From Methanomassiliicoccaceae archaeon (lineage in GTDB: Archaea; Thermoplasmatota; Thermoplasmata; Methanomassiliicoccales; UBA472), in the NCBI GenBank assembly GCA_003135935.1, contig PNBI01000074.1, positions 1-37,683 on the forward strand: 37,683 nt of DNA, in the 5' to 3' direction. The notes under the pieces were generated by a model. That model searched no databases. It saw only the letters and a list, made by a program, of their open reading frames with translations, and was not told the DNA's origin. Each line of letters begins with the position of its first letter. Position 1 is the first letter of the stretch. The position numbers and the translations under genes are program-made. This document shows positions 1,060 to 22,045 of the stretch, piece by piece.

Positions 1060-2250
1060 TCACTTCTTCTCGGTCAGGGCGGCTTCCGTCGGGTTCGTCG
1101 CTTCCACCAGCAGCTCTGCGAGGTCCATGACCTTGATGTTGGCGCCGATCTGCTTGGCGCCCTGCTGCAGGTTCAGCACGCAGAACGGGCAAGTGGTGAT
1201 GATACGCTCCGCCCCAGTGTCCACTGCATCCTTGACCCGCTTGGCGGCAATGTTGGTGGCGAACTCGTTGTACTGCGACTTGTAGCCGCCGCCAGCTCCG
1301 CAGCACTGCGAGTTCATGCGGTTCCGCCCCATCTCCACTAGCTCGATGCCCGGGATGGACTTGATGACCTCGCGCGGCGCATCGAAAACCCCCGAATGTC
1401 GACCGAGGTGGCACGGGTCGTGGTAGGTGACCTTGATCTTCATCTCCTTGGTCAGTTTCAGCTTCTTCTCCTTGAGGAGCTTCTGCATGTACTGTGAGTA
1501 GTGGAAGACCTCGAATGACGGATTGGAATAGAATCGGCCATAGTCGTGCGTCGTGGTCTTGAAGCAGCCAGCGCAGGCGGTAACCATGGCCTTCGCCCCC
1601 ATGTTCTCCGCGACCGTGATGTTGTTGAAAGCGAAATCCCGACTGGCATCGATCTGTCCGGTGCGGAGCATCGGAGAGGTGCAGCAGAACTCCTTCTCGT
1701 CCATGATGTTCTGTTTCACCCCTGCCCGGTCCAAGCTGATGACGGCCGCCTTGCTGATCTGCGTCATCCTGTAGGATGCGGTGCAGCCTGCAAAGAAGAC
1801 CACATCGGGGTTGACCTCCACCCGCTTGATGCTTTCAGGGAACCAAGCGCCTCGCTTCTCCGGCGGCTCTCCGTACGGATTGTTAGTGGCTAATATTCGC
1901 TCCCTGATCTTCTTGTGCGCCGGCATCGGCCCCATGCCCTGCTCGACGACCCATTCACGGACCTTCTCCCAGAACTCGGCGAACTCGATGCTGACGTGGC
2001 AGACCGTCCAGCAGGCAGCGCAGCCAGTGCAACGATAGAGCGCGTCGACGAACTCCTCATCGACCACGACCTTGCGCCCCAGGATGGTATCCATCGGGGT
2101 ACGGTTCTGCAGCTGCTTCAGATAATAGACCTTGCCCCGAGGGCTTATGGATTCCCACGGCTCTTGGCCATAGGTATCACAGACGCGCACGCAGTAGCCG
2201 CACTGGAGGCAGGCTGACAATTCTCGGTTGATATTTGGGAGCTTAACCAT
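1060..2250 (-). CDS. HdrD-like (Fe-S)-binding protein: two N-terminal 4Fe-4S motifs plus CCG domains
   Basis: CLQCGYCVRVC, CTGCAACWTVC, then CCG-type motifs (CCTSPM...CAGC; CCGAGGG...CPFC). Confidence 0.85.
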   Translation of the reverse strand: MVKLPNINRELSACLQCGYCVRVCDTYGQEPWESISPRGKVYYLKQLQNRTPMDTILGRKVVVDEEFVDALYRCTGCAACWTVCHVSIEFAEFWEKVREWVVEQGMGPMPAHKKIRERILATNNPYGEPPEKRGAWFPESIKRVEVNPDVVFFAGCTASYRMTQISKAAVISLDRAGVKQNIMDEKEFCCTSPMLRTGQIDASRDFAFNNITVAENMGAKAMVTACAGCFKTTTHDYGRFYSNPSFEVFHYSQYMQKLLKEKKLKLTKEMKIKVTYHDPCHLGRHSGVFDAPREVIKSIPGIELVEMGRNRMNSQCCGAGGGYKSQYNEFATNIAAKRVKDAVDTGAERIITTCPFCVLNLQQGAKQIGANIKVMDLAELLVEATNPTEAALTEKK

Positions 2251-2422: not shown

Positions 2423-2953
2423 CTATCCATCGAGTATTGGGCCGTAGCCGTACCAGGCCCCTTCGAGCTTCAGGAGGCGCAGGTTCTTCTCCAACAGGTC
2501 ACGGTGGGTGACCTCCCAGTCGGCGAGCGAGCGGAGCGTGGCTTTCAACCGGGGATCGTCGACTTTGCCTTCGGCCTCGACGTACATCGCAATGCTCCGC
2601 TTCTCCACCTCCAGCCCCTTCTCTAGGGCGTTTATCTCGTCCTGCAGCAGAATACAAGAATCGGGTTTTGGGATGAAGACTCGGCTCGGGACTATATCGA
2701 GATAATCGGGCGAAGGTTGAACGCACGAGACGTCGCATGTCGATTGGAAATGGGCTATTTCCTTTTCCAGGATTGCCTTGTGCTTGATCTCATCCTCCAT
2801 TAGGCTGCGCAACAACGCCGCGCCTCTCTCCTCTTTGACGCAGGTGCTGAAATTATCATAGAACTCGATACCGAACTTCTCGATTTCGAGGGCAGCCTTC
2901 AGGATGGATATCGCCTTCTCCGAGCCCTGGACCTTGGCATCGCCTTTCTGCAT
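2423..2953 (-). CDS. Ferritin-like/rubrerythrin-like di-iron protein
   Basis: Two helical repeats with E..E..H pattern: ALEIEKFGIEFYDNF...EDEIKHKAIL and GLEVEKRSIAMYVEA...DWEVTHRDLL. Confidence 0.75.
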   Translation of the reverse strand: MQKGDAKVQGSEKAISILKAALEIEKFGIEFYDNFSTCVKEERGAALLRSLMEDEIKHKAILEKEIAHFQSTCDVSCVQPSPDYLDIVPSRVFIPKPDSCILLQDEINALEKGLEVEKRSIAMYVEAEGKVDDPRLKATLRSLADWEVTHRDLLEKNLRLLKLEGAWYGYGPILDG

Positions 2954-3500: not shown

Positions 3501-5582
3501 TTGGCGCTTGCATCCAATGGAACGCGAGATCAAGCTGTGAGAGCATTGCTCGGTGACTACCTATTCCCGTTGATGGTGATCCTAGCCTTGTGCGGAGGCT
3601 TCTCAGCCGTCATGTTGAACTCAAGGAACAAGGCGTGCATCGGCGTCGCCTTCGGCGCCGCCGCCGCATTCTCTGCCTGCGGGATCATGGTAGCGATTGA
3701 GGTTCTGGTCGAAGGCCCATTGATGCTCTCCTTGCCGATCACCAGTGTCATCGGACAGCTTTCCTTCGGTTTCAATATCGTTGTCGACCAGCTTTCTGCC
3801 TTCTTCCTTTTGGTCATCTGCACCCTTGCCCTCCCGGTTTCGATTTATTCCGTCGGCTACGTGAAAGAGTACGAGGGCCACTACGGGCTGGGGCGTTTTG
3901 GCCTGCTGTTCAACCTCTTCCTGCTCTCCATGGTTTTGGTCGTCACGGCTGGCAACATAATTGTATTCCTCATTGCCTGGGAGCTGATGTCCCTCTGCTC
4001 CTATTTCCTGGTGACTTTCGAGAGCCGGGACACCGAGAAAGCGTCCGCCGGCTTGCTCTACCTGGTCATGACGCATATTGGGAGCGCCCTCATCATGCTG
4101 GCGCTTTTATTGCTAGCGTTCCAGGCCAACTCATTCGAGTTCTCTGACTTGAAGAACATCGGACTGTTCATGGGCGTGGATGTCCGCAGCATTGCCTTCA
4201 TCCTCCTGCTCTTAGGATTCGGCACTAAGGCGGGGATTGTGCCGCTTCACGTATGGCTGCCGAAAGCCCATCCCGCAGCTCCCAGCAACATCAGCGCCCT
4301 GATGTCAGGCGTGATGATCAAGACCGCCATTTACATGCTGATACGAACATACTTCGATTTTCTCGGGATCAACGGACCGGGGGACGCTTGGCTCGGCCTT
4401 TTGTTCCTGCTGATTGCGTCGATCTCCGCGCTGATCGGCGTGCTCTATGCCCTGGTCGAGAAAGACATCAAGCGCATCCTGGCCTTCTCGAGCATCGAGA
4501 ACGTGGGCATAATACTCATAGCGTTTGGCGCGGCCATGGTCTTCAAGGCCTACGGTCTTAACGAATTGGCCGCCCTGGCTCTGATCGCGACCTTGCTCCA
4601 TGTCTTCTTCCATTCCCTCTTCAAAGGATTGCTTTTCCTCGGAGCCGGCTCGATACTGCATGCCACTGGGACGCGCAACCTCGAGAAACTGGGCGGCCTA
4701 AGCCATCGAATGAAGGTCACTAGCGTGCTCTTCTTCGTCGGCGTGCTATCCATCGTGGCGATCCCCCCATTCAATGGATTCGTCAGCGAGTGGCTGATCT
4801 TCCAATCGCTGCTACTGTCATTCAGCTTAAACGATGTGCTGGTGAACCTGCTTGTCGCCACTGCGCTTGGAATGCTCGCTCTGACCGGGGCGCTAGCCGC
4901 CACTTGCTTCGTCCGCTTCTACGGAATGGCCTTCTTAGCAAGACCTAGGAGCAGGGAAGCGGCTGAGGCCAAGGAGGTACCACGGAGCATGCTGCTGGGT
5001 ATGGCAGTGCTCGCTGCTTTATGCCTGTTGACCGGGCTGCTATCCACTTACATCATTCCAACGGTCGACCAGGTGACCGCCCCCCTCGTCGGGACTAGTA
5101 TCGCAGGAAGATTAGCTGGTGGCCTAGTGCTTCAGACACCGGTCTCTTCCTTCTCGAGCATGTCCCCGATTTTGATCTCGATCGTGCTGCTCGTCGCCCT
5201 GCCCTCCATTTACCTGATTGCCACCAGATACGGAGGGAGACGGTCGGAAAGAGTCGGCGATACCTGGGACTGCGGAACTCCCTTGAGCGAACGGAACGAA
5301 TATACCCCCACTGGCTTCACCCAGCCCTTGAAGCGCGTCTTCAACGGCTTCTATCATTCAAAGACTAGCACGTCCATCGAGACGGGATCGGACCCCTACT
5401 TGCGAAAACTGAGCTTCGAGACATCGATCCCCGAGGTCTTTGAGGATTACCTTTATCGACCTATTGCCAAGATCGTCACTGGACTGGCCCGCAAAGGCGG
5501 AGTGATCCAGACAGGCAGCATCCAGGCATACCTGGCCTACATCTTCGTCATTCTGCTGATACTATTGGTCATCTTCAGGTGA
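3501..5582 (+). CDS. HyfB/NuoL-like proton-antiporter-type membrane subunit of a group-4 hydrogenase-related complex
   Basis: 693 aa, multi-TM; GTKAGIVPLHVWLPKAHPAAPSNISALMSGVMIKTAIY; HyfB-type tail GDTWDCGTPLSERNEYTPTGFTQPLKRVFNGFY. Start may be GTG 3537. Confidence 0.92.
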   Translation: MALASNGTRDQAVRALLGDYLFPLMVILALCGGFSAVMLNSRNKACIGVAFGAAAAFSACGIMVAIEVLVEGPLMLSLPITSVIGQLSFGFNIVVDQLSAFFLLVICTLALPVSIYSVGYVKEYEGHYGLGRFGLLFNLFLLSMVLVVTAGNIIVFLIAWELMSLCSYFLVTFESRDTEKASAGLLYLVMTHIGSALIMLALLLLAFQANSFEFSDLKNIGLFMGVDVRSIAFILLLLGFGTKAGIVPLHVWLPKAHPAAPSNISALMSGVMIKTAIYMLIRTYFDFLGINGPGDAWLGLLFLLIASISALIGVLYALVEKDIKRILAFSSIENVGIILIAFGAAMVFKAYGLNELAALALIATLLHVFFHSLFKGLLFLGAGSILHATGTRNLEKLGGLSHRMKVTSVLFFVGVLSIVAIPPFNGFVSEWLIFQSLLLSFSLNDVLVNLLVATALGMLALTGALAATCFVRFYGMAFLARPRSREAAEAKEVPRSMLLGMAVLAALCLLTGLLSTYIIPTVDQVTAPLVGTSIAGRLAGGLVLQTPVSSFSSMSPILISIVLLVALPSIYLIATRYGGRRSERVGDTWDCGTPLSERNEYTPTGFTQPLKRVFNGFYHSKTSTSIETGSDPYLRKLSFETSIPEVFEDYLYRPIAKIVTGLARKGGVIQTGSIQAYLAYIFVILLILLVIFR

Positions 5583-5586
5583 CGCC

Positions 5587-6522
5587 TTGAACGACCCTCT
5601 CCTAGCCATCATCCAAGCCGCCCTTATCCTGGGCTTAGCACCGTTGGTCACGGGCATCATTCGCAAGGTGAAGGCAGTGCTGCAGTCGCGTCAAGGCCCG
5701 CCGATACTGCAACCCTATTACGATCTGCAGAAGCTATTCCGTAAATCATCCGTCGTCTCTTCCGACGCTTCTTGGGTCAGCATCATCACGCCATACGTTT
5801 GCATGGCGGCGATGGTGGTTGCGGCCCTTTTGGTGCCGGTGTTCGTCACGGCGTCCTTCGGCTCGCTGGGCGATCTGATAGTGGTAGTATATCTCTTCGC
5901 GACAGCTAGGTTCTTCATGGCCTTGGCGGCCTTAGACGCTGGGTCGACCTTCGGAGGCATGGGCAGCAGTCGGGAAATGATGATCTCTTCCATCATCGAG
6001 CCGGCTATCCTGCTCGCAATCTTCAGCGCGGCCCTGATCACCGGAACGACGGACCTGGCCGGGATATCGCAGGTGCTGGTGGTCGGCGGATACGACTTGG
6101 TCAGGCCAACGCTATTCTTGGCCTTTGCTGCGTTTTTCATTGCCACTCTGGCTGAGAACGCGCGGATCCCTTTCGACAATCCGGCCACTCATCTTGAGCT
6201 GACCATGATCCATGAGGCCATGCTGCTCGAGTACTCCGGTAAGAAGCTCGCCCTGATGGAAATGGCCAGCATGACCAAGCTGGTGCTATTCATCGCCATC
6301 GCCTGGAGCGCATTCTTCCCCTTCGGGATGGCCACGGAGGTAGCGATCCTGCCTGTGGCCATCGGGCTGATAGCATTCCTGGTGAAGTTGCTCCTCTTCG
6401 CATTGGCCATTGCCCTGATCGAGTCGTCCATGTCAAAGATGCGGCTGTTTCGACTGCCGAACCTGCTCACAGGTTCGTTCATCCTGGCCTTCCTGGCCGT
6501 TATGTCATTCTATATCCTATGA
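5587..6522 (+). CDS. HyfC/NuoH-like membrane subunit
   Basis: GIIRKVKAVLQSRQGPPILQPYYDLQKLFRK; FATLAENARIPFDNPATHLELTMIHEAMLLEYSGKKLALME, typical NuoH/HyfC signatures. Confidence 0.93.
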   Translation: MNDPLLAIIQAALILGLAPLVTGIIRKVKAVLQSRQGPPILQPYYDLQKLFRKSSVVSSDASWVSIITPYVCMAAMVVAALLVPVFVTASFGSLGDLIVVVYLFATARFFMALAALDAGSTFGGMGSSREMMISSIIEPAILLAIFSAALITGTTDLAGISQVLVVGGYDLVRPTLFLAFAAFFIATLAENARIPFDNPATHLELTMIHEAMLLEYSGKKLALMEMASMTKLVLFIAIAWSAFFPFGMATEVAILPVAIGLIAFLVKLLLFALAIALIESSMSKMRLFRLPNLLTGSFILAFLAVMSFYIL

Positions 6523-6555
6523 GGTGAGAAGACGAGCGCCCCCCTTGAGTTCAAC

Positions 6556-7191
6556 GTGATAAATGGCCTCGCCGCTCTTGTTCTGCTCTGCGCCTTCGTC
6601 GCGGTTTCCAGCAGCCGCATGCCTGCGCTGGTGCGCACGTTCGCTATCCAGTCCCTAGCCCTTGGCATGCTGGCGGCCAGCGTTGCCTATTTCACTGGTT
6701 CTCCTCAAATCTATGTGGTAGCAGGACTGACCATTGCCCTGAAGGCTATCCTGATCCCGCGCATGCTGGCCTACATAATGAAGCGGATCAAGGTCGAGAA
6801 GGAAGTAGATCCATTTCTCAACATCCCGTCATCATTGCTAGTCTCAGGCGGTCTGGCGGTCCTCGCATATTACATTACTGAGCCGTTGATCGTGCATGGA
6901 GGAGAGCTCACGCGCAACGCGCTCGCCCTCTCCCTCGCGGTCGTATTCATCGGTTTCTTCATCATGATCAGCCGACGAAAGGCGATCACCCAGGTGGTCG
7001 GCCTGCTGATCATGGAGAACGGACTGTTCATGGCAGCCATATCTGTAACTTACGGAATGCCGTTGATAGTCGAGCTGGGCATCTTCTTCGATGTGCTCGT
7101 CGCCGTTATCATTTTGGGGGTCTTCGCGTTCCGCATCAACAACACCTTCGATTCGCTGGACACCAGTTTCCTAAGGAGGCTGAAGGATTAG
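6556..7191 (+). CDS. HyfE-like (NuoK-related) membrane subunit
   Basis: 211 aa multi-TM between HyfC- and HyfF-like genes; GLLIMENGLFMAAISVTYGMPLIVELGIFFDVLVAVIILGVFAFRI. Confidence 0.88.
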   Translation: MINGLAALVLLCAFVAVSSSRMPALVRTFAIQSLALGMLAASVAYFTGSPQIYVVAGLTIALKAILIPRMLAYIMKRIKVEKEVDPFLNIPSSLLVSGGLAVLAYYITEPLIVHGGELTRNALALSLAVVFIGFFIMISRRKAITQVVGLLIMENGLFMAAISVTYGMPLIVELGIFFDVLVAVIILGVFAFRINNTFDSLDTSFLRRLKD

Positions 7192-8664
7192 ATGATCGAG
7201 CTTCTCCTCATCATACCAGTCATCACGGCCGCACTGTGCTTCCTCATGAATCGGGTCATGCATAATCGGCGCGCGATTGAGATCGCCAGCACCGTTGGCG
7301 CTGGAATCCTCTTCATCGCAGTCCTCCTCTTCGTGTACAAGGTTGTGGGGGAAGGGGCGATCTATGAGGGCGCCCTTTTCATGGACTCCCTGTCGGCCTA
7401 CATGCTGCTCATCGTCGCCTTCATGGTCTTCATCGGGGCGGTGTACTCGGTGGGTTACATGGGCCACGAATACGAAGAGAAGGCGTTTGGGCTGGGGAGG
7501 CTGGGGGACTACTACACTTTCCTCCACATCTTCGTCTTCACCATGATACTGGTGTGCGTCTCCAACAATCTGGGGATCATGTGGATCGCAATCGAGGGGA
7601 CCACACTGGCATCGGCGTTCCTGGTCAGCTTCTACAATCGCGACACGTCCCTCGAGGCGGCTTGGAAGTACATCATCATCTGCTCCGTCGGCATCACGCT
7701 GGCACTGCTCGGCACCATTCTGGTATATGCCTCCTCCGTCAACGTGGTCGGCGAGAGTTCGAGCGCTTTGGACTGGACGACCCTTCGGTCGATCGCCGGC
7801 AGCCTTGACAAGGACCTTCTGCGGATCGCCTTCATACTGGTCCTGGTCGGGTACGGCACCAAGGTCGGTCTGGCGCCGATGCATACCTGGCTTCCGGACG
7901 CTCACTCCCAAGCGCCAACTCCGGTTAGCGCCTTGCTCTCCGGCGTACTGTTGAACTGCGCTATGTATGGCATCCTGCGCTTCCACATCCTCAGCACCGA
8001 AGCGATGGGTCCAGGGTTCTCCGGGTCGCTTCTCCTTCTCTTCGGCGTCATTTCCATGGTGGTCGCAGCGGCCTTCATCATAATCGCGAGGGACATCAAA
8101 CGCTTGCTCGCCTACCATAGCATCGAGCACATGGGCATCATCGCCATAGGGTTCGGCCTGGGTGGGCCATTCGGCGTTTTCGGAGCGCTGCTGCACATGC
8201 TGAACCATGCCATGGCCAAATCGCTCTTGTTCTTCGGAGCAGGGAATGTGCTGCTCAAATTGAAGACTAAAATCATGGAGGACGTCAAGGGATTGAGTCA
8301 ACATATGGCAGCAACCGCAGTGTTACTCTTCATCGGGATGCTGGCGCTCGCTGGGTCTCCTCCCTTTGGGCTGTTCATCAGCGAGCTAAGCATCCTCTAT
8401 GCGGCAGTGACCCAGGGGCAGACCCTGGTAGCGGCGATCTATCTTTTACTGCTCATCATAATCTTCCCTGCCTTGCTCTGGCACATCGGAGGCATGATTT
8501 TCGGCAAGCCATCGGAGGAAGTCCCGCGCGGGGAGGTCAGCCGGCTCAACATCTGGGTAATGGTCGTGCTGGCTGCAGGGCTTCTGGTCTTGGGTCTAGT
8601 CATCCCTGGCCCGCTTGCAACGTTGATCGGGCAAGCGACCTCACTGTTCGGAGGGCTTCCATGA
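7192..8664 (+). CDS. HyfF/NuoN/L-like antiporter-type membrane subunit
   Basis: 490 aa; GYGTKVGLAPMHTWLPDAHSQAPTPVSALLSGVLLNCAMYGILR; YHSIEHMGIIAIGFG. Confidence 0.93.
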   Translation: MIELLLIIPVITAALCFLMNRVMHNRRAIEIASTVGAGILFIAVLLFVYKVVGEGAIYEGALFMDSLSAYMLLIVAFMVFIGAVYSVGYMGHEYEEKAFGLGRLGDYYTFLHIFVFTMILVCVSNNLGIMWIAIEGTTLASAFLVSFYNRDTSLEAAWKYIIICSVGITLALLGTILVYASSVNVVGESSSALDWTTLRSIAGSLDKDLLRIAFILVLVGYGTKVGLAPMHTWLPDAHSQAPTPVSALLSGVLLNCAMYGILRFHILSTEAMGPGFSGSLLLLFGVISMVVAAAFIIIARDIKRLLAYHSIEHMGIIAIGFGLGGPFGVFGALLHMLNHAMAKSLLFFGAGNVLLKLKTKIMEDVKGLSQHMAATAVLLFIGMLALAGSPPFGLFISELSILYAAVTQGQTLVAAIYLLLLIIIFPALLWHIGGMIFGKPSEEVPRGEVSRLNIWVMVVLAAGLLVLGLVIPGPLATLIGQATSLFGGLP

Positions 8665-10247
8665 ACGAGCGGCTGATGGGGGAGATCATTGCCTCTATGG
8701 AGGAGGAGCTGGCGAACGGAATCAAAAAGACGGGCATAAAGGGCAATCACGTATGGATGACGGTAGAGCAGTCTGTTTTTCCGAAGATCGCGGGACACAT
8801 CCACAATTCATGGGGAGCGACGTTGGTCAGCATGCATGCCGTCGACAATCGCTTCATTTCCTCCGATTACAAATTGTGCATCATCCTTGCGTTGAAGGGT
8901 GAGGACGATTTCGTGACATTGGTGACATCGGTTGACTCAAAGGATACGGTCTTTCCAAGCGTGACCCCCGAGATCTTCAGCGCCGATTGGTACGAAAGGG
9001 AGATCAACGATATGTTCGGGCTCCAAGCCAAAGGCCATCCGGACCTCAAGCCTTTGGTCCTCTACGACGATTGGCCAGAAGGAACTTACCCCCTGAGGAA
9101 GGATTTCGCCGCCGATTCCAGAGTCCTCAGGATTCCCAGGCCATACAATTACCGCAACGTCGAGGGGGAAGGTGTCTTCGTCATACCAGTAGGTCCGGTT
9201 CATGCTGGAGTGATCGAGCCGGGGCATTTCCGGTTCAGTGTCGCAGGCGAACCGATAATCGACCTGGAGCTCAGATTGGGGTATGTGCACAAAGGAATAG
9301 AGAAGATATCTGAGCGCATGCCATACAGCAAGGGAGTGCTGTTGGCAGAGCGCATCTCCGGAGATAACAGCTTCGCGCACTCCCTCGCTTATTGCCAAGC
9401 AGTAGAGGCGCTGTGCAATGCCAAGGTCCCGGAACGGTCGAGGTTCGTGCGCTGCATCTTCTCCGAGCTCGAAAGGATATACAATCATCTCGGGGACGTC
9501 GGAGGCATTGCCCTGGACACCGCTTTCAGCATTGGCGCCCAGCACGCATACATTTTGCGAGAGCGGGTAATGGACATCAATGACCTTCTCACTGGCAGTC
9601 GCTTCCTGAGAGGCGTCAATTGCTTGGGAGGGGTGTGGAAGGGCATTGATGAGCGCGGACGGTCAAAATTGATCGAGCGTTTGGTAATGGTCAAATTGGA
9701 CTTCCAGGAATTCTATGACGAGGTAATTGGCACGCCTTCGGTCATGGACCGTTTGGAGACGACCGGCGTTTTGTCGTACGAAGCGGCGAAAGACCTGAAC
9801 ATCGTTGGTCCGGGGGCAAGGGCGAGCGGTATCGACCGCGATGTCAGGCGAGACCATCCATACGCTGCCTATAGGGATCTCAGCTTCAAAGTGCCCATCC
9901 TGACGCAGGGCGACGTCAATGCTCGTTTCCAGGTCAAGTCGGAGGAAATATTCGAGTCGATCAGCATCATCGAGCAGGCGTTGTCAAATATGCCAGAGGG
10001 CGAACCAAGGATCGATATCCCGACGCCGGAACCCGGCAGAACCGCAATGAGCTTGGTGGAATCCCCTCGTGGGGAGCTGCTGCATTGGATCGTATCGGGC
10101 GAAGGGAAGCCTTTCCGGCATAAGATCAGGGATGCTTCCTTCCACAACTGGAGGGCGATGGAGGTGGCGGTGCTTGGCAACATCGTACCGGACTTCCCGC
10201 TTGTGAATAAATCATTCAGCCTTTCGTATTCGGGGAACGATCTTTGA
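8661..10247 (+). CDS. HyfG-like large subunit (fused NuoC + NuoD domains) lacking NiFe-site cysteines
   Basis: NuoC-like N-terminus (SADWYEREINDMFGLQAKGHPDLKPLVLYDDWPEGTYPLRKDF) fused to a NuoD/hydrogenase-large-like domain (LGYVHKGIEKISE). 4 bp ATGA overlap with the upstream gene. Confidence 0.92.
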   Translation: MNERLMGEIIASMEEELANGIKKTGIKGNHVWMTVEQSVFPKIAGHIHNSWGATLVSMHAVDNRFISSDYKLCIILALKGEDDFVTLVTSVDSKDTVFPSVTPEIFSADWYEREINDMFGLQAKGHPDLKPLVLYDDWPEGTYPLRKDFAADSRVLRIPRPYNYRNVEGEGVFVIPVGPVHAGVIEPGHFRFSVAGEPIIDLELRLGYVHKGIEKISERMPYSKGVLLAERISGDNSFAHSLAYCQAVEALCNAKVPERSRFVRCIFSELERIYNHLGDVGGIALDTAFSIGAQHAYILRERVMDINDLLTGSRFLRGVNCLGGVWKGIDERGRSKLIERLVMVKLDFQEFYDEVIGTPSVMDRLETTGVLSYEAAKDLNIVGPGARASGIDRDVRRDHPYAAYRDLSFKVPILTQGDVNARFQVKSEEIFESISIIEQALSNMPEGEPRIDIPTPEPGRTAMSLVESPRGELLHWIVSGEGKPFRHKIRDASFHNWRAMEVAVLGNIVPDFPLVNKSFSLSYSGNDL

Positions 10248-10585
10248 GGTGTGACATGCTCGAAACGATTAGGAAGGGAGTGTTGAAGAAGGGCGTGGTG
10301 ACCGATCGTTATCCATACGTTCCTTACATGCCCTATGACGGCCATCTTGGCATGCCTATGGTGGATGAGGCCAAGTGCACATCCGACAAAGTCTGCGAAC
10401 AGGTATGCCCTACCACCGCCATCCGTTTCGCACCAGGCCAATTGAGCATAGACCTCGGCCTCTGCATATTCTGCGGGGAGTGCGCCCGCCGTTGTCCGCA
10501 TCAGGCGATAATCATGTCCAAGGAGTTTGAACTCGCAAGCAAGAGAAGAGAAGGTTTGGTGAGGTTCTATGTCGTCCAGCAATGA
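10244..10585 (+). CDS. HyfH/NuoI-like 2x[4Fe-4S] ferredoxin subunit (start probably ATG 10256)
   Basis: CTSDKVCEQVCPTTAIRF and CIFCGECARRCPHQAI. Confidence 0.88.
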   Translation: MRCDMLETIRKGVLKKGVVTDRYPYVPYMPYDGHLGMPMVDEAKCTSDKVCEQVCPTTAIRFAPGQLSIDLGLCIFCGECARRCPHQAIIMSKEFELASKRREGLVRFYVVQQ

Positions 10586-11114
10586 TGAGCTCGAGCGGAG
10601 CGGGAGGCAATTGGAGGCCCGCATCAAGAAGGCTTTCGGACGTTCGTTGGCCATTCGCGAAGTCGACTCAGGGTCCTGCAATGCCTGTGAGGTGGAAGTA
10701 AACGCCCTGACTAATCCGATCTTTGACATTGAGCGGTTCGGCTTGCACATCGTGGCCTCACCGAGGCATGCTGACGCTCTTCTAGTGACCGGACCCGTCG
10801 CTAGGAATATGGAGCACGCCCTGATGCAAACTTACCTGGCAACGCCTGATCACAAGATAGTGATTGCCACGGGGGCTTGCGCGTGCAGCGGAGGCATCTT
10901 CAAGGACTGCTATGCCACCACTAACGGGTTGGACAAGCTTCTTCCGGTCGATGTCTACATCCCTGGATGCCCGCCTCGCCCGCAAGCTATAATCCAGGGG
11001 CTCATGGTTGCCTTGGACAAGATGAAGGAGAAGGCAGGGCACAGCACAACTTCGTCCAAGCGCTTACTTGACAACGATAACGGTGCATCGGGCGTTGCGC
11101 ACGACGTATTCTGA
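10569..11114 (+). CDS. HyfI/NuoB-like small subunit
   Basis: DSGSCNACEVEV, GACACSGGIF, VYIPGCPPRPQAIIQGL: the [4Fe-4S] ligand pattern of the NuoB/HyfI family. Confidence 0.92.
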   Translation: MSSSNDELERSGRQLEARIKKAFGRSLAIREVDSGSCNACEVEVNALTNPIFDIERFGLHIVASPRHADALLVTGPVARNMEHALMQTYLATPDHKIVIATGACACSGGIFKDCYATTNGLDKLLPVDVYIPGCPPRPQAIIQGLMVALDKMKEKAGHSTTSSKRLLDNDNGASGVAHDVF

Positions 11115-11453
11115 CACCGAGCCGATGAGCACCCTGTCGATGGCCGTCTTTCCAGATGTGCCAACGATGATCGTGTCCGCCTTGATCCTTTCCGATGCGG
11201 TTAGGATGGTTTCGTAAGGACTTCCAGCCTCCAACAGGGTGGTCACGCTTACGCCCTTCTGCGTGCCGCGTTGCTTGAGCTTGTCCAGCACTTCCATGCC
11301 GAACTTGATGATCTTCTCCTTCTCCTCCTCTGCCTTGGGGCTCACCACGAAGATGATGTACAAAGTGGCCTTTTGCAAAGAGGCGAAATCGAATGCATAG
11401 TTGATCGCCTTCTCAGAATGCTTCTTGCCATCCGTAGCCAATAACAAATTCAC
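11064..11453 (-). CDS. UspA-family universal stress protein
   Basis: MNLLLATDGKKHSEKAINYAFDFA...ADTIIVGTSGKTAIDRVLIGSVSEYVVRNARCTVIVVK. Confidence 0.9.
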   Translation of the reverse strand: MNLLLATDGKKHSEKAINYAFDFASLQKATLYIIFVVSPKAEEEKEKIIKFGMEVLDKLKQRGTQKGVSVTTLLEAGSPYETILTASERIKADTIIVGTSGKTAIDRVLIGSVSEYVVRNARCTVIVVK

Positions 11454-15847: not shown

Positions 15848-15865
15848 GATTCCTCGGAGAAAGGA

Positions 15866-18247
15866 CTACGGGCGGTATTCTTTGACCTTCTCCGCCATAT
15901 CCAGCAAGCGCGCCTGGACTAGATAGTTGATCGTTCCTTTCTCGAAGGAGCCATCGGATTTGCGCTCGCCCGCCTTCACGTCGGTCAGGACCTCGATCCC
16001 CTGCGCGATGCTCGCCACTGGATAGATGTGGAATTGGCCTTTCTTCACCGCTGCGACCACCTCATCCTTAAGCATCAGGTGCTGGACGTTGCTTTGTGGC
16101 ATCATCACTCCATTCTTGCCGTTGAGGCCGAGCAGCTTGCAGACCTCGAAGTAGCCCTCGATCTTCTCGTTGATCCCTCCGATGGCCTGAACCTCTCCCT
16201 TTTGATTGACGGAGCCAGTGACTGCGATGTACTGCTTGATAGGCTTATCAGCCAGAGCGGACAATATCGCGTAGAGTTCGGTGGACGACGCGGAATCGCC
16301 GTCCACGCCCGAATAGTTCTGCTCGAACACCAGTTTGGCCGTCAATGACAGTGGAGATTCCTTGGCGTACATTCCGTTCAGATAACCGATCAATATCATC
16401 ACACCCTTTGTGTGCGAGGGGCCGCTCATCTCCGCCTCCCTCTCGATATTGACGATGCCTTCTTTGCCGACACCTACCGACGCGGTGATCCGGCTTGGCA
16501 TCCCGAACGCGTAATCCCCTGTCGACATCACGCTCAGTCCATTGACCTGGCCAGCCTTATTTCCCGCGACATCGAGGATAACGATCCCTTTGGCAATGGC
16601 CTCTTCGATCTTCTTTTGGATTATGTTGGAACGATAGACCTTCTCCTCCAAGGCCTGATTGATGTGCTGCCGCTTGATCAGCCTGACCTTGGCGGTCTTT
16701 GCATAGAAATTCGCCTCTCGGATCAGGTCGGCTATGTCCGAGAACAGGGTCGAAAGTTTCGCCTGATCATCTGCAAGGCGGGAACCGTGCTCGACCACGG
16801 CCGAAAGCGCACCTGGATCCAGATGCAACAATTTCTCTTTCTGGCACAGGGTGCAGACGAACTGCGCGTACTGATTGATGTTGTCCTTGCTGCGCTCCAT
16901 GGTGGTATCGAAGGCGCCTTTGACCTTGAACAGCTCCTTGAATTCGCGGTCCGCGGAGTAGAGTATCTCATAGCTGTAAGGATCGCCCAGGATGATCACC
17001 TTGGCATCGAACGGTATCGCCTCCGGACGGAGCGACTTCGTCATGATATATCCGAATTTGACAGCCGGGTCCTCGATCTCCAGTTTGCCCGTGGACAAAG
17101 TTTGTTTTAGGCTAGGCCATGACAGCGCATCAGCGAATAGGCCTTCCACCGGGACAACGAGGAATCCTCCGTTGGCCTTGTGCATCGCCCCGGCTCGGAT
17201 CATGGTAAAATCAGTGAACAGCGCTCCGAACCTTGCCTCCTTTTCTGTCGCGCCGAACAACCTGAAGTAGGAGGGGTTGGTCTCGATGACGACCGGCGCC
17301 CCAATGGTCTTGGAATTATCAACGATAAGGTTCACGGCGTAATTATGTGCAGGGCTGTCCACCTGGATCGGAATGCCCATCGGGCCAGCCTGCTTCTGAT
17401 CCCCGGTGAGAACGCCGGCAAGGTTGTCGAGAATATTCGCTTGCACCTCTGCCAGGAATTCGATCACCTGCTGGAACGCTCCGAACTGTTCCCTCAGCAA
17501 TGACATTCGAGGCCCGACAATATATGAAGCGACGTCCCGGTTCAGCTTGTTCACCTTTTCCTCGGCCTCTTTGTCCAGGTCCCTGAGCTGGATCAGGGAT
17601 TTCTGCACATCCACCTGCAGCTCGTCCCTTTTATCTTCGATCTTCTTTCGATCCTTCGTTGGCATGTTGGCCAGATCTTCCTCGGAAATGGGCTTCCCGT
17701 CGACCACTGGCACTAGCAATAGCCCGATCGGGGACTGGGTTATCTGGAACCCGGCTTTGGAGGTCATTCGGCTCATGTTGGCGACGAACTCCTTCCGCTT
17801 CTCGTCCAGGCTGTGCAGTGCGGTCGTGCGTTGCTGAGTATATTCATTGCTCTCGAACGCTTCGCGCAGCGCGGTGGTCAGGCCAGCCACTAGCTTCTCC
17901 ATCTCTTTCTTTAGGTCCGCACCCTTTCCGGCCGGAAGCCTCAACGCACGCGGACTGGTCGGGTCCTTGAAATTGTTCACATAGCACCAATCGTCCGGAG
18001 CGCCCTTTTCTTTGGCCAGTTGCTCGATGAAGCTGACGATGGCCGTCTTGCGTCCGGTTCCTGGAAGGCCGGCCACGAAGATGTTGAATCCTTGATTTTG
18101 AATGCGTAGGCCGAATTGCAGGGCGCGCACCGCCCTATCCTGGCCGATTATCTCCATCAGGGGCGAAAGCTCCTCAGAGGACTTGCATTTGAATGTGATA
18201 TCTGGGCAAGTGTTGCGGCACTGCTCGGTCGTGAGTTCCTTCATCAT
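15866..18247 (-). CDS. Lon-like ATP-dependent protease (AAA + S16 Lon C-terminal domain)
   Basis: Walker A VAGLPGTGRKTAIV; C-terminal Lon catalytic motif GVDGDSASSTELYAILSALADKPIKQYIAVTGSVNQKGEVQAIGGINEKIEGYF. Confidence 0.92.
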   Translation of the reverse strand: MMKELTTEQCRNTCPDITFKCKSSEELSPLMEIIGQDRAVRALQFGLRIQNQGFNIFVAGLPGTGRKTAIVSFIEQLAKEKGAPDDWCYVNNFKDPTSPRALRLPAGKGADLKKEMEKLVAGLTTALREAFESNEYTQQRTTALHSLDEKRKEFVANMSRMTSKAGFQITQSPIGLLLVPVVDGKPISEEDLANMPTKDRKKIEDKRDELQVDVQKSLIQLRDLDKEAEEKVNKLNRDVASYIVGPRMSLLREQFGAFQQVIEFLAEVQANILDNLAGVLTGDQKQAGPMGIPIQVDSPAHNYAVNLIVDNSKTIGAPVVIETNPSYFRLFGATEKEARFGALFTDFTMIRAGAMHKANGGFLVVPVEGLFADALSWPSLKQTLSTGKLEIEDPAVKFGYIMTKSLRPEAIPFDAKVIILGDPYSYEILYSADREFKELFKVKGAFDTTMERSKDNINQYAQFVCTLCQKEKLLHLDPGALSAVVEHGSRLADDQAKLSTLFSDIADLIREANFYAKTAKVRLIKRQHINQALEEKVYRSNIIQKKIEEAIAKGIVILDVAGNKAGQVNGLSVMSTGDYAFGMPSRITASVGVGKEGIVNIEREAEMSGPSHTKGVMILIGYLNGMYAKESPLSLTAKLVFEQNYSGVDGDSASSTELYAILSALADKPIKQYIAVTGSVNQKGEVQAIGGINEKIEGYFEVCKLLGLNGKNGVMMPQSNVQHLMLKDEVVAAVKKGQFHIYPVASIAQGIEVLTDVKAGERKSDGSFEKGTINYLVQARLLDMAEKVKEYRP

Positions 18248-18380
18248 CTACGATTACCTCGTGGCGGAAAGATTGCATTAACCCCCTTGTAAAACCTACT
18301 ATTGGTCATCGAAAGTGGCGGGTGAAGAGCACCAGCACTCAGCAAAAAGTATTATCCGACAGCATCGCGTTGGTGCGGCA

Positions 18381-19394
18381 ATGGCGGGCAGGCAGAGAGT
18401 CAAGAAAAGCACTGGCAAGGACCTCAATTCCATTAGATCAGCGATATTGCTACGATTAGCCCAGAGCTCATTGATCCGCACGGACCTTCTGGCAGAGTTG
18501 AAGGAACAAGGCCTCGACCCCCGAGAGCTCACCCAGACCTTGAGCGGTTTGGTCAAGGGTGGTTCTATCCGGATGGAGGGAGCGAGGAAGGCAAAATGCA
18601 GCCTGCGCCAGGATTTCTCAACCTTCAAGATGGCATTCGGCATTTGTGCCGCGGAAGGGAAGGAGAACGATTTCCTGGCAACTCCATATTCCAAGTCGAT
18701 TCTTAGCGCTGACCTATTCCCTATCCTGACAAGAGAGTTCGTTCGCTCCGCCATACTATCCACGCTCATGCTCCTGACAATGCCTGCGGTGGACCGCGCA
18801 AAGAACTCCTCGTTGCTGCTCTTGCATAGGACGGTCTATAGCGACCCTTACACCACGGCCGCCATCCAGGGGATCGGCGGTTCCTTGGAAGCCATCGGTT
18901 TCTCAGAAGCGCTGAAGAAAAGCTTGACAGGCCTCAAGACCAAACAGGAGAGGGAGGCGCAGACCTATGTCATGCTTGAGCAACTGGCAGAAGATTACCT
19001 ATCGCGTTTCCTCGGCGGCAGGACCCCACTACCATCCGCGCTCGAGGGATGCCAATCGCTCCTGTTCCCAGAGAAGGAAAGGGCGGAGATATTGAAGACA
19101 TTGCGTAGCTCCCCATTCGCATTGAGCTTCGTGCTTGCCAACGAGGACATGTCTCAGGGGACGGTAATGTCCATCGTCACTCCGCTCCTTCTGCCGGCGC
19201 TGGAACACATGTTCACGCTTTTCGCCCTGTTCAAGCTGTTCTCGTCCGCGGACGTCGAGGCCTATATCGAGGACAAGACGAACAGGGCAGACAAGGAGTT
19301 CAAAGAGGTCGTGGAAAGGAGGAAGGCAGGAATGCAGCAGCCCTCGCACCTCCTGCTGGCGCTTCGATCCTGCCGTATGGCCGATGTGCCTTAA
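18381..19394 (+). CDS. Uncharacterised protein with putative N-terminal winged-helix-like segment
   Basis: ORF from 18315; ATG at 18381 more likely. SIRSAILLRLAQSSLIRTDLLAELKEQGLDPRELTQTLSGLVKGGSI resembles a wHTH. Confidence 0.6.
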   Translation: MAGRQRVKKSTGKDLNSIRSAILLRLAQSSLIRTDLLAELKEQGLDPRELTQTLSGLVKGGSIRMEGARKAKCSLRQDFSTFKMAFGICAAEGKENDFLATPYSKSILSADLFPILTREFVRSAILSTLMLLTMPAVDRAKNSSLLLLHRTVYSDPYTTAAIQGIGGSLEAIGFSEALKKSLTGLKTKQEREAQTYVMLEQLAEDYLSRFLGGRTPLPSALEGCQSLLFPEKERAEILKTLRSSPFALSFVLANEDMSQGTVMSIVTPLLLPALEHMFTLFALFKLFSSADVEAYIEDKTNRADKEFKEVVERRKAGMQQPSHLLLALRSCRMADVP

Positions 19395-19511
19395 TAGATC
19401 GGAATAAAGAACGACGCGATTCGTAACGAAAGCTGCGCTGTGAACAGGTCATCCGGTCTTGTTGAGTACAAGGATGAGCGCCCAAAACGATGAGCGCCGC
19501 TTTCTCAATGT

Positions 19512-20697
19512 TCAGCGAACGAAATCTATCCCTTCGTTGCTCTTTCGGTTCTCGGTCGAATTGTTGGTTCCTAGCTTGTCTGGGCGAATGCCCAATCTGG
19601 CGGCGACATCGTCACTCCCTCCGTTGAGCATGTACTTGGACTTGGCTCCGGTGAATATTACGAGCACCTGGACCTTTCCGGTGTTCTCAGGGTCGATGGA
19701 GCATCCCCAGATCAGCCTGGCGCGAGGATCGATGTTCTTGCCGACCAGTTCCGCCGATCGTTGCGCCTCCTCCACCGTCATGTCCGGTCCGCCCACCACG
19801 CGGATTAGCGCCCCCTTTGATTGCTTGACGTTGATATCGCCCAGCATAGGGGAATTGAGCGCTTCGGTGACCGCCGCCTTGATGCGATCGTCCGAATCCT
19901 GATCGCTCTCGCCCATGCCGACGAAGGCAACCCCGCCCTCGTTCATGATGGTCATGATATCCGCATAATCCAAATTGACCAGTCCGGGCTTGGTTATGAT
20001 CTCGGTCAAGCCCTTGATTGTCTGCATGAGCACCTCATCGGCCACTTTGAATGCGGCCTGGACCGGAAGGTTGGGGACGAGCTCCAACAACTTGTCGTTA
20101 GGCACTACGATGGTAGTGTCGGTCACCCGACGGAGCTTGTCCAACCCGTCCAGGGCGTTCTCCATCCTGACCGTTCCCTCTGATTTGAAGGGGAGGGTGA
20201 CTACGCCGATGGTCAGCGCCTTCAATTGCTCTTTGGCGATCCCCGCCACGAAATGCGCTGAGCCAGTTCCAGTTCCTCCGCCCATTCCAGAGGTCACGAA
20301 TACAATATTGGCGCCATTGAGGAAGGCGCGGATTTCCGGCTCGTTCTCTCGGGCGGCCTGCTCTCCGACCTCCGGAATCGCTCCGGCACCCATTCCGCGT
20401 GTGGAGACCTTGCCGATCAGGATCTTCGTCGGGGCATGTACAGTCAACAGATGTTTAGCATCGGTGTTGATGGCAGCCAATTGAGCCCCGTTTATCCCAG
20501 CTTCGACGCAGCGGTTAATGGTGTTGCATCCGCCTCCGCCACAACCTATGATCTTGATACTGACCTCAAGCTGGGCTGCGATCTTCCTAATCTCTTCGTC
20601 GGCCACGGAATCGGGTCCGGCGGCCTGCACGGTCGCTGCCTGTGCCTCTTTTTGTTTGATATTCTCTAGTGCGCTCTTTACCAAGGAGTTTGGCATG
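19512..20697 (-). CDS. ftsZ: FtsZ-family tubulin-like GTPase
   Basis: GCGGGGCNTINR, tubulin signature SGMGGGTGTGSAHFVAGIAKE, NTDAKHL. ORF extends to 20750; MPNSLVKSALENIKQ start at 20697. Confidence 0.93.
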
Positions 20698-22045
20698 TGC
20701 ATCCCTCGTAGGACATTTGTCTGACGGACGATATAAATGTTGGCATCCAAAAGCGCTGAACGGCGAAGGTCGGACAGCTCATTTCTTATTGGAGGTGCCT
20801 ATCGGGTATCTACCGAGGCAAGAGATCATAGGCCCTGATGCTAACCGACCGAAAGGGATTTTTCCGAAGGTACCACTTCAGGTAAAGCGCCTGATCTATC
20901 TCACCTCGTTCTCATCGGTCGCTTACGGCTACCTGATGATGTCCGTCGCCGCCTACCTTCCAGAGGTCGGGATCACCTCTAGCCAGGTCGGGCTATTGCT
21001 GGGTCTGAATGGGGCAGCATTGGTCATCACCGCGGTTCCCGTCGGCCTGCTGGCTGACCGGATCGGGCGGAAGAGCATCTTCATCTGGGGTCTGGCAGGC
21101 CTTTCTCCGATCATGCTGGTCTACGCCTTCACTACGGACTTCACCTTCCTGGCGATCGCCTCGATCTTCGCCGGGCTAGCGGAAGGGGCTTTCTTGAGCA
21201 CCTGGAACGCGATGATCGCGGACCAGACCGGCCATGGCGGTCGGGAGGAAGCGTTCTCGATGAGCTTCATCTTCAACACTTCCTCCACGTCCATCGGATA
21301 TGCTCTACCTTTGGCATTCCCAGCCCTTCAGGCATTGACCGGCTTGGATTCCAGGGGGATCCACTCCTCGGTCTTCTTCGTCCTTGCCATCGTGGCCTTC
21401 GTCTCCCCCTTGGCCTTGCGGTCGATGCTTCGCCACTATAATGATAAAGCAGAGTTCGGCAAAACGAGCATCAGGAAAATACGCAACCTACGCGTCATTC
21501 TCAAGTTCTCTGCCATCAATTCGCTGATCGGCTTGGGAGCGGGATTCGTCATCCCTCTTATTCCCACCTACCTCTTCCTGCGTTTCAGCCTTCCTGACAC
21601 TTACACAGGGCCTTTACTGGCATTGTCTGGGGTCACAATTGGACTGGTATCGGTGCTTAGTCCATGGCTGTCCCGCAAGTTTGGCATCGTGAGGGCGATC
21701 GTCATCACACAAGGGATCAGCACGGTCTTCATGTTCGCAATACCTTTCATGCCTGACGCGTCAACGGCGGCCGCGGTGTATCTGGTGAGGGCAGCGCTCA
21801 TGAACATGGGTGGCCCACTGGTCGACACCTTCATGATGGGCATAGTTGCCAAAGAGGAGAGGGGAGTAGCTAGCGCGATCAACATGGTCATTTGGCGTCT
21901 GCCCAATTCCGTCACCACGATTGCTGGAGGGATCTTGCTTGCCAGTGGTCAATTCGTTCTCCCGTTCATCATTGCGGCCCTGTTCTACATCCTCGCGATA
22001 ACGCTCTTCTTCTTCAACTTCAAGGACATCAAATTGAAATCGTGA
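20669..22045 (+). CDS. Major facilitator superfamily transporter (true start downstream, around 20789-20900)
   Basis: 12-TM-like; LLADRIGRKSIFIWG MFS loop; SRKFGIVRAIVITQG. Confidence 0.85.
   Translation: MRSLPRSLACASLVGHLSDGRYKCWHPKALNGEGRTAHFLLEVPIGYLPRQEIIGPDANRPKGIFPKVPLQVKRLIYLTSFSSVAYGYLMMSVAAYLPEVGITSSQVGLLLGLNGAALVITAVPVGLLADRIGRKSIFIWGLAGLSPIMLVYAFTTDFTFLAIASIFAGLAEGAFLSTWNAMIADQTGHGGREEAFSMSFIFNTSSTSIGYALPLAFPALQALTGLDSRGIHSSVFFVLAIVAFVSPLALRSMLRHYNDKAEFGKTSIRKIRNLRVILKFSAINSLIGLGAGFVIPLIPTYLFLRFSLPDTYTGPLLALSGVTIGLVSVLSPWLSRKFGIVRAIVITQGISTVFMFAIPFMPDASTAAAVYLVRAALMNMGGPLVDTFMMGIVAKEERGVASAINMVIWRLPNSVTTIAGGILLASGQFVLPFIIAALFYILAITLFFFNFKDIKLKS

Follow-up and report, generated by a model that had tools for sequence, protein, structure and literature searches.

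The window, by which is meant the whole 37,683-nucleotide stretch of a Methanomassiliicoccaceae archaeon analysed here, has at 3501-11114 seven contiguous genes, overlapping or separated by short gaps, in the order HyfB-C-E-F-G(CD)-ferredoxin-NuoB (Table 1). Antiporter-like and NuoH-like membrane subunits are encoded in one operon with a NuoB-like subunit, as is expected of energy-converting hydrogenase-related (Ehr) complexes. The HyfB-like subunit conserves the motifs of TM5 (Glu), TM7 (Lys), TM11 (Lys) and TM12 (Glu), and the HyfF-like one its channel residues; the NuoB-like subunit has a hydrogenase-type CxxC plus two more cysteines (CNAC...GAC...PGC), these being the four Fe-S cysteines that the initial annotation had rightly described as retained. 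That annotation also had the large and small subunits correctly in its inventory, but overlooked the HyfH-like ferredoxin subunit between them (~10256-10585). In two families of the order the hdrD-like and rubrerythrin-like genes (1060-2953) stand divergently beside the Ehr operon, and a universal stress protein (Usp) gene adjoins Ehr in three families of Methanomassiliicoccales. In Methanoperedens and a Methanosarcinaceae archaeon a Usp gene follows Ehr immediately, in the same orientation (L116, 12114-12548; L118). No formate dehydrogenase was seen at the window locus. Clustering of the flanks of bacterial Ehr loci yielded mostly subunits of Ehr itself, with antisense-ORF noise and some few regulators besides; no oxidoreductase emerged as a common conserved partner.

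Table 1. Ehr operon of the window, its two replacement motifs and the adjoining genes
Feature	Coordinates	Strand	Remarks
hdrD-like gene (396 aa)	1060..2250	-	divergent neighbour of Ehr; Pfam CCG x2 + Fer4
rubrerythrin-like gene	2423..2953	-	lies between hdrD and Ehr; Pfam Rubrerythrin E 5e-10; conserved neighbour
HyfB-like antiporter-type membrane subunit (693 aa)	3501..5582	+	NCBIfam NF005086 hydrogenase 4 subunit B, 715 bits (cut-off 667)
HyfC/NuoH-like membrane subunit (311 aa)	5587..6522	+	Pfam NADHdh E 1e-43; PFDNPATHLELTMIHEA motif conserved
HyfE-like membrane subunit (211 aa)	6556..7191	+	NF008556 hydrogenase 4 membrane subunit E, 9e-32, under cut-off
HyfF-like antiporter-type membrane subunit (490 aa)	7192..8664	+	NF005044 hydrogenase 4 subunit F, E 2e-160, under cut-off
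Ehr large subunit, fused NuoC+NuoD type, without NiFe ligands (528 aa)	8661..10247	+	domains, HycE alignment, AF2 model, dN/dS
L1 replacement motif ERISGDNSFAH	9348..9380	+	Cys positions are S233, N236
L2 replacement motif, C-terminal, NKSFSLSYSGNDL-stop	10206..10247	+	Cys positions are S522, G525
HyfH-like ferredoxin subunit	10244..10585	+	likely start ATG 10256; CxxDxxCxxxCP + CxxCxxCxxxCP
NuoB-like small subunit	10569..11114	+	four [4Fe-4S] ligands retained (CNAC, GAC, PGC)
universal stress protein	11064..11453	-	Pfam Usp E 3e-28; convergent with NuoB-like gene, overlaps its end

The ORF of the large subunit begins with an ATG that overlaps the HyfF stop and ends with a TGA at 10245-10247. 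Its product matches Pfam Complex1_30kDa and Complex1_49kDa, and at 25.0 bits it is under the 25.8-bit cut-off of PF00374 (NiFeSe_Hases). The top match among solved structures is E. coli HycE (7z0s_E, E 1e-89), to which an AF2 model made from 65 family sequences (mean pLDDT 93.3) has a TM score of 0.95. HycE RVCGICGFAHS aligns with RISGDNSFAHS of the window protein, and SLDPCYSCTD with SFSLSYSGND, so that all four NiFe ligand cysteine positions are occupied by other residues, S233, N236, S522 and G525. The absence of these cysteines from a hydrogenase-like large subunit was what had first been noticed at the locus, and both the sequences quoted for it and their coordinates proved correct. The ligand motifs of group 4 [NiFe] hydrogenases, RxCGxC...H and DPCxxC, are thus lacking (S, N, S and G stand in their place), and there is also no cleavable C-terminal extension, as the chain ends NDL-stop at L528, three residues past the Gly that replaces the last Cys. 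It terminates at about the position where hydrogenase precursors are cleaved, though removal of a C-terminal extension by a maturation protease is not universal among group 4 hydrogenases.

Is the loss an artefact? A frameshift or misassembly was ruled out as its cause, for the same replacements are present in ~40 related assemblies, in Bacteria and in other Archaea; nor are there displaced Cys ligands, the only cysteines at ligand positions among the Ehr sequences being single ones in two loci (L040, L145). Neither of the circumstances which would have overturned the original observation was found, on the evidence of conservation across assemblies, of alignment and of substitution rates: between the window and a congener dN is 0.13 and dS 1.21, and purifying selection acts on the large-subunit gene. 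Further afield, a genome scan for Ehr relatives gave at least 574 loci, 80 of which were used along with members of the order, other relatives in the class and phylum, and plasmid-borne copies from Azospirillum, Rhizobium and Rhodococcus. With few exceptions these large subunits carry SGD in L1 and a C-terminal NKSxxxSYxGxD. In an alignment of 65 sequences, 62 from Ehr and three group 4f-like, N516, K517, S518, Y523 and D527 are invariant, and S233, D235, S522 and G525 are present at 90% or more. From the window archaeon to Nitrospira, Rhizobium and Rhodococcus the replacements are nearly invariant, and this points to a pocket that works, not to one in decay. As judged from these alignments, the S-x-S-G replacement signature is common to Ehr and is new here.

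The large subunit has 48% identity over 498 aa to that of Nitrospira moscoviensis, whose complex was described as Ehr (PMC12342949), and both by this identity and by its place in the same part of the tree it groups with published Ehr rather than with Ech, Fpo or Nuo. The Ehr-type assignment made at the outset holds, with gene order and lack of NiFe ligands in its favour in addition to that identity. An 'ehr' complex of function stated as unknown was noted earlier in a Methanomassiliicoccales genome (MALP; PMC6147122), and the Ehr of N. moscoviensis and that of MALP share with the window the gene order, the absence of NiFe ligands, S-x-S-G and the C-terminal stop. Ehr has also been reported in Nitrospirales (PMC12342949, PMC10284858), ammonia-oxidising archaea (PMC10432482), the M. 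tuberculosis complex (PMC6728331) and lineages sibling to Cyanobacteria (PMC6349859). The window Ehr is an additional member of an already known, widespread and functionally unsolved family.

In a tree built with both motifs masked and rooted on Fpo-like paralogs, Ehr and hydrogenases with all four cysteines (Cys4) stand together, apart from HycE, Ech and Fpo. The nearest such relatives (L121, L131, L140, L152, L156, L176 and L177) have the cysteines in an NKSFELCY(S/A)C context, and are here called, after the literature, 'group 4f-like'. Group 4f-like hydrogenases (Thermincola, Brocadia and others) have the NKSFxL context and the subunits in common with Ehr and differ in possessing all four cysteines. 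The initial description of Ehr as intermediate between hydrogenases and complex I does not match the rooted tree, which puts Ehr beyond Ech and HycE and with the Cys4 group 4f-like enzymes; it looks like a derived branch of hydrogenases. A free tree search nested the Cys4 sequences within Ehr, and when Ehr was held as one clade p-AU was 0.667 and the likelihood above that of the free search. Since a single Ehr clade is not rejected, one loss of the NiFe ligands may suffice.

How does the complex compare with better known machines? With E. coli HycE and HyfG it shares the fused CD large subunit, the fold and a HyfB-C-E-F membrane arm, whereas HycE has a NiFe site, C-terminal cleavage and maturation genes, and the window large subunit neither that site nor a cleavable extension. 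With complex I and the Fpo-like 11-subunit complex it shares the core fold, ion-translocating modules and the Asp at the ALD position (D286), and differs in having Gly234 where the quinone-site Tyr would be (alignment with Aquifex NuoCD), in the NuoB CxxC in place of a tandem CC, and in the absence of the Fpo/Nuo electron-input set; the two marks of complex I and Fpo, the NuoB tandem Cys and the NuoD quinone-site Tyr, are both missing.

In contrast to Nitrospira Ehr, in whose loci no ferredoxin subunit was found, the window has the HyfH-like subunit, in which the cluster II ligands are kept and an Asp is at the second ligand position of cluster I. Several relatives have D, H, E, S or T at that position of motif 1. 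Cluster II, formed of three motif-2 cysteines and the fourth motif-1 Cys, is kept in all ferredoxin-bearing loci in which both motifs are readable, and copies from Acidobacteria and Verrucomicrobia have lost exactly the four cluster I ligands, though L137 (Acidobacteriota) keeps them. Such coherent cluster-by-cluster retention points to cluster II as still handing electrons on to that of NuoB. Many bacterial Ehr loci are without a ferredoxin subunit.

The window's genome (2.08 Mb, 91.6% complete), that of a Methanomassiliicoccales methanogen, has mcrA and hypD, and an Fpo-like paralog on another contig, C39. The fpoD of that paralog (G000:C39:27188-28224, L044) is split over two reading frames. 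The proposed check for hyp maturation genes did find HypD, but it does not discriminate, being present in 95 of the 101 genomes searched, most of which have true NiFe hydrogenases too. No PF00374 match over cut-off was found in the window's own assembly, probably due to assembly incompleteness, and the notion of an organism devoid of NiFe hydrogenase was dropped, as both congeners carry such matches. Across the order Ehr is in nearly all genomes of family f1, most of f6 and about a third of f2; none was found in families f3-f5. Just downstream of Ehr in f6 is a true Ech hydrogenase (ERVCGICSYHH / DPCICCTDR).

What might it do? A 2025 study states the function of Ehr as unknown (PMC12342949). 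Our main reading, to which we give a probability of roughly one half, is that the window Ehr is a ferredoxin-fed ion pump whose acceptor is something other than protons. Reduced ferredoxin would donate electrons to the HyfH-like subunit, both the donor and the direction of flow being inferred, and from its cluster II they would pass via the [4Fe-4S] cluster of the NuoB-like subunit to the remodelled pocket of the large subunit, made up of S233-G234-D235 and S522-Y523-x-G525-x-D527. There a non-proton acceptor would be reduced, with no H2 chemistry, and the energy would drive ion translocation through the NuoH-like and the two antiporter-like subunits, pumping likewise being presumed. The contiguous subunits, the HycE fold, the conserved replacements, the Fe-S ligands, the channel residues and purifying selection argue for this. 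Against it are the non-Cys second ligand of cluster I in the window itself, the many bacterial Ehr with no ferredoxin subunit, and relatives that lack every predicted redox ligand, because of which redox chemistry is not essential to the Ehr family.

Those relatives bear on a different and less probable proposal, that Ehr is a non-redox ion transporter or a module for pH or ion homeostasis, whose hydrogenase-like arm binds a ligand or gates, with Fe-S clusters that are structural or vestigial. Ten related loci, with hosts in Methanosarcina, Methanoregula, Altiarchaeales, Micrarchaeota and CPR, have lost three or all four ligands of the NuoB cluster: the positions are D, T, D, N in L089 and L111-L115, P/S, V, G, N in L135 and L154 of Micrarchaeota, and T/D, C, D, D in L179 (Daviesbacteria) and L188 (bacterium). 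A single origin of this loss is rejected (p-AU 7e-10), which means at least two independent events. No ferredoxin gene was found near these Fe-S-less loci (0/9, versus 24/60 other loci; Fisher p 0.022, with kinship ignored). They keep the large-subunit signature and most antiporter and NuoH residues, i.e., TM5 Glu, TM7 Lys and the NuoH-like motifs, the TM12 Glu of HyfF often being Lys. Moreover, comparison of two Methanosarcina records shows the Fe-S-less small subunit to be strongly constrained by purifying selection (dN 0.027, dS 0.46), and aerobic bacteria have Ehr with no electron-input subunit. Such complexes may be without any redox cofactor, and it is mainly on their account that one can doubt whether every Ehr is a redox enzyme. 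However, in the window complex the NuoB cluster is retained, as is a ferredoxin subunit whose cluster II is intact, and the cluster-by-cluster retention suggests that electron transfer is selected in its subtype. A limited literature search found no published report of Fe-S-less Ehr. Beyond the Ehr operon on the Altiarchaeales contig of L111 comes a further HyfB-C-E-F cassette (15865-20891), and the locus ends before a large subunit.

A bolder and rather improbable reading has Ehr as a hydrogenase-like machine turned ion pump or transporter, whose cytoplasmic pocket would sense a non-hydrogen, possibly non-redox, ligand. All lineages would have shed NiFe, some of them also cluster I of the ferredoxin and others that of NuoB, one step at a time and with the ion machinery kept under selection, and the window would have the form still equipped with ferredoxin.

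A partner has also been considered. In Methanomassiliicoccales, Ehr with HdrD could take electrons from ferredoxin to the reduction of CoM-S-S-CoB, as an ion-pumping ferredoxin:heterodisulfide oxidoreductase without HdrE, which we hold to be improbable. The window HdrD has a ferredoxin-type domain and two CCG domains of the CX31-39CCX35-36CxxC form (spacings 32/35 and 35/36 by manual count on the protein sequence), both motifs being complete. In a tally of coordinates hdrD is divergent from Ehr and 6-9 kb from the large-subunit gene in 19 genomes (13 of f1 and six of f6), with one more case, L100, split by a contig end; the order is without HdrE, and an Fpo-like complex is so far a proposed partner of HdrD. 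The hdrD1/ech1 accession order given in PMC4153887 fits the hdrD neighbourhood of the window and suggests a like arrangement in M. luminyensis. Yet hdrD homologs are in all of the 101 genomes, many of them without Ehr, and in f2 hdrD and Ehr are far apart, single-contig genomes included. Across the order hdrD adjoins a gene of ~915 aa that is probably an Lhr-type helicase. Conserved adjacency can therefore be neutral at this locus, and part of the synteny, some of which exists without Ehr, probably is; being next to Ehr is thus no proof of partnership. In addition, no hdrD is within the examined flanks of Ehr in Methanoperedens and bacteria. In one genome without Ehr (G026), hdrD adjoins Ech.

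That the complex is a cryptic but active hydrogenase, or a decaying pseudo-enzyme, is very improbable despite its closeness in sequence to Cys4 group 4f-like hydrogenases, for Cys is at none of the four ligand positions and N. moscoviensis Ehr is not induced by H2 (PMC12342949), while the conserved replacements, a dN/dS near 0.1 and an operon found intact in dozens of genomes speak against decay.

New here are the signature, the relation to group 4f-like hydrogenases, the detail of the ferredoxin Asp, the adjacency of hdrD in 19 genomes and the cofactor-poor relatives. The signature provides a sequence test for Ehr membership and a set of residues to mutate. Ehr is spread over methanogens, methane-oxidising archaea, nitrifiers, rhizobia, mycobacteria (from the literature) and many soil bacteria, and its presence in Methanomassiliicoccales is relevant to how these archaea, which lack HdrE, couple ion pumping to the oxidation of ferredoxin and the reduction of the heterodisulfide. 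With cofactor-poor relatives to hand, one of them in what is apparently the genome of a Methanosarcina isolate, whether Ehr is a redox pump at all is now directly testable.
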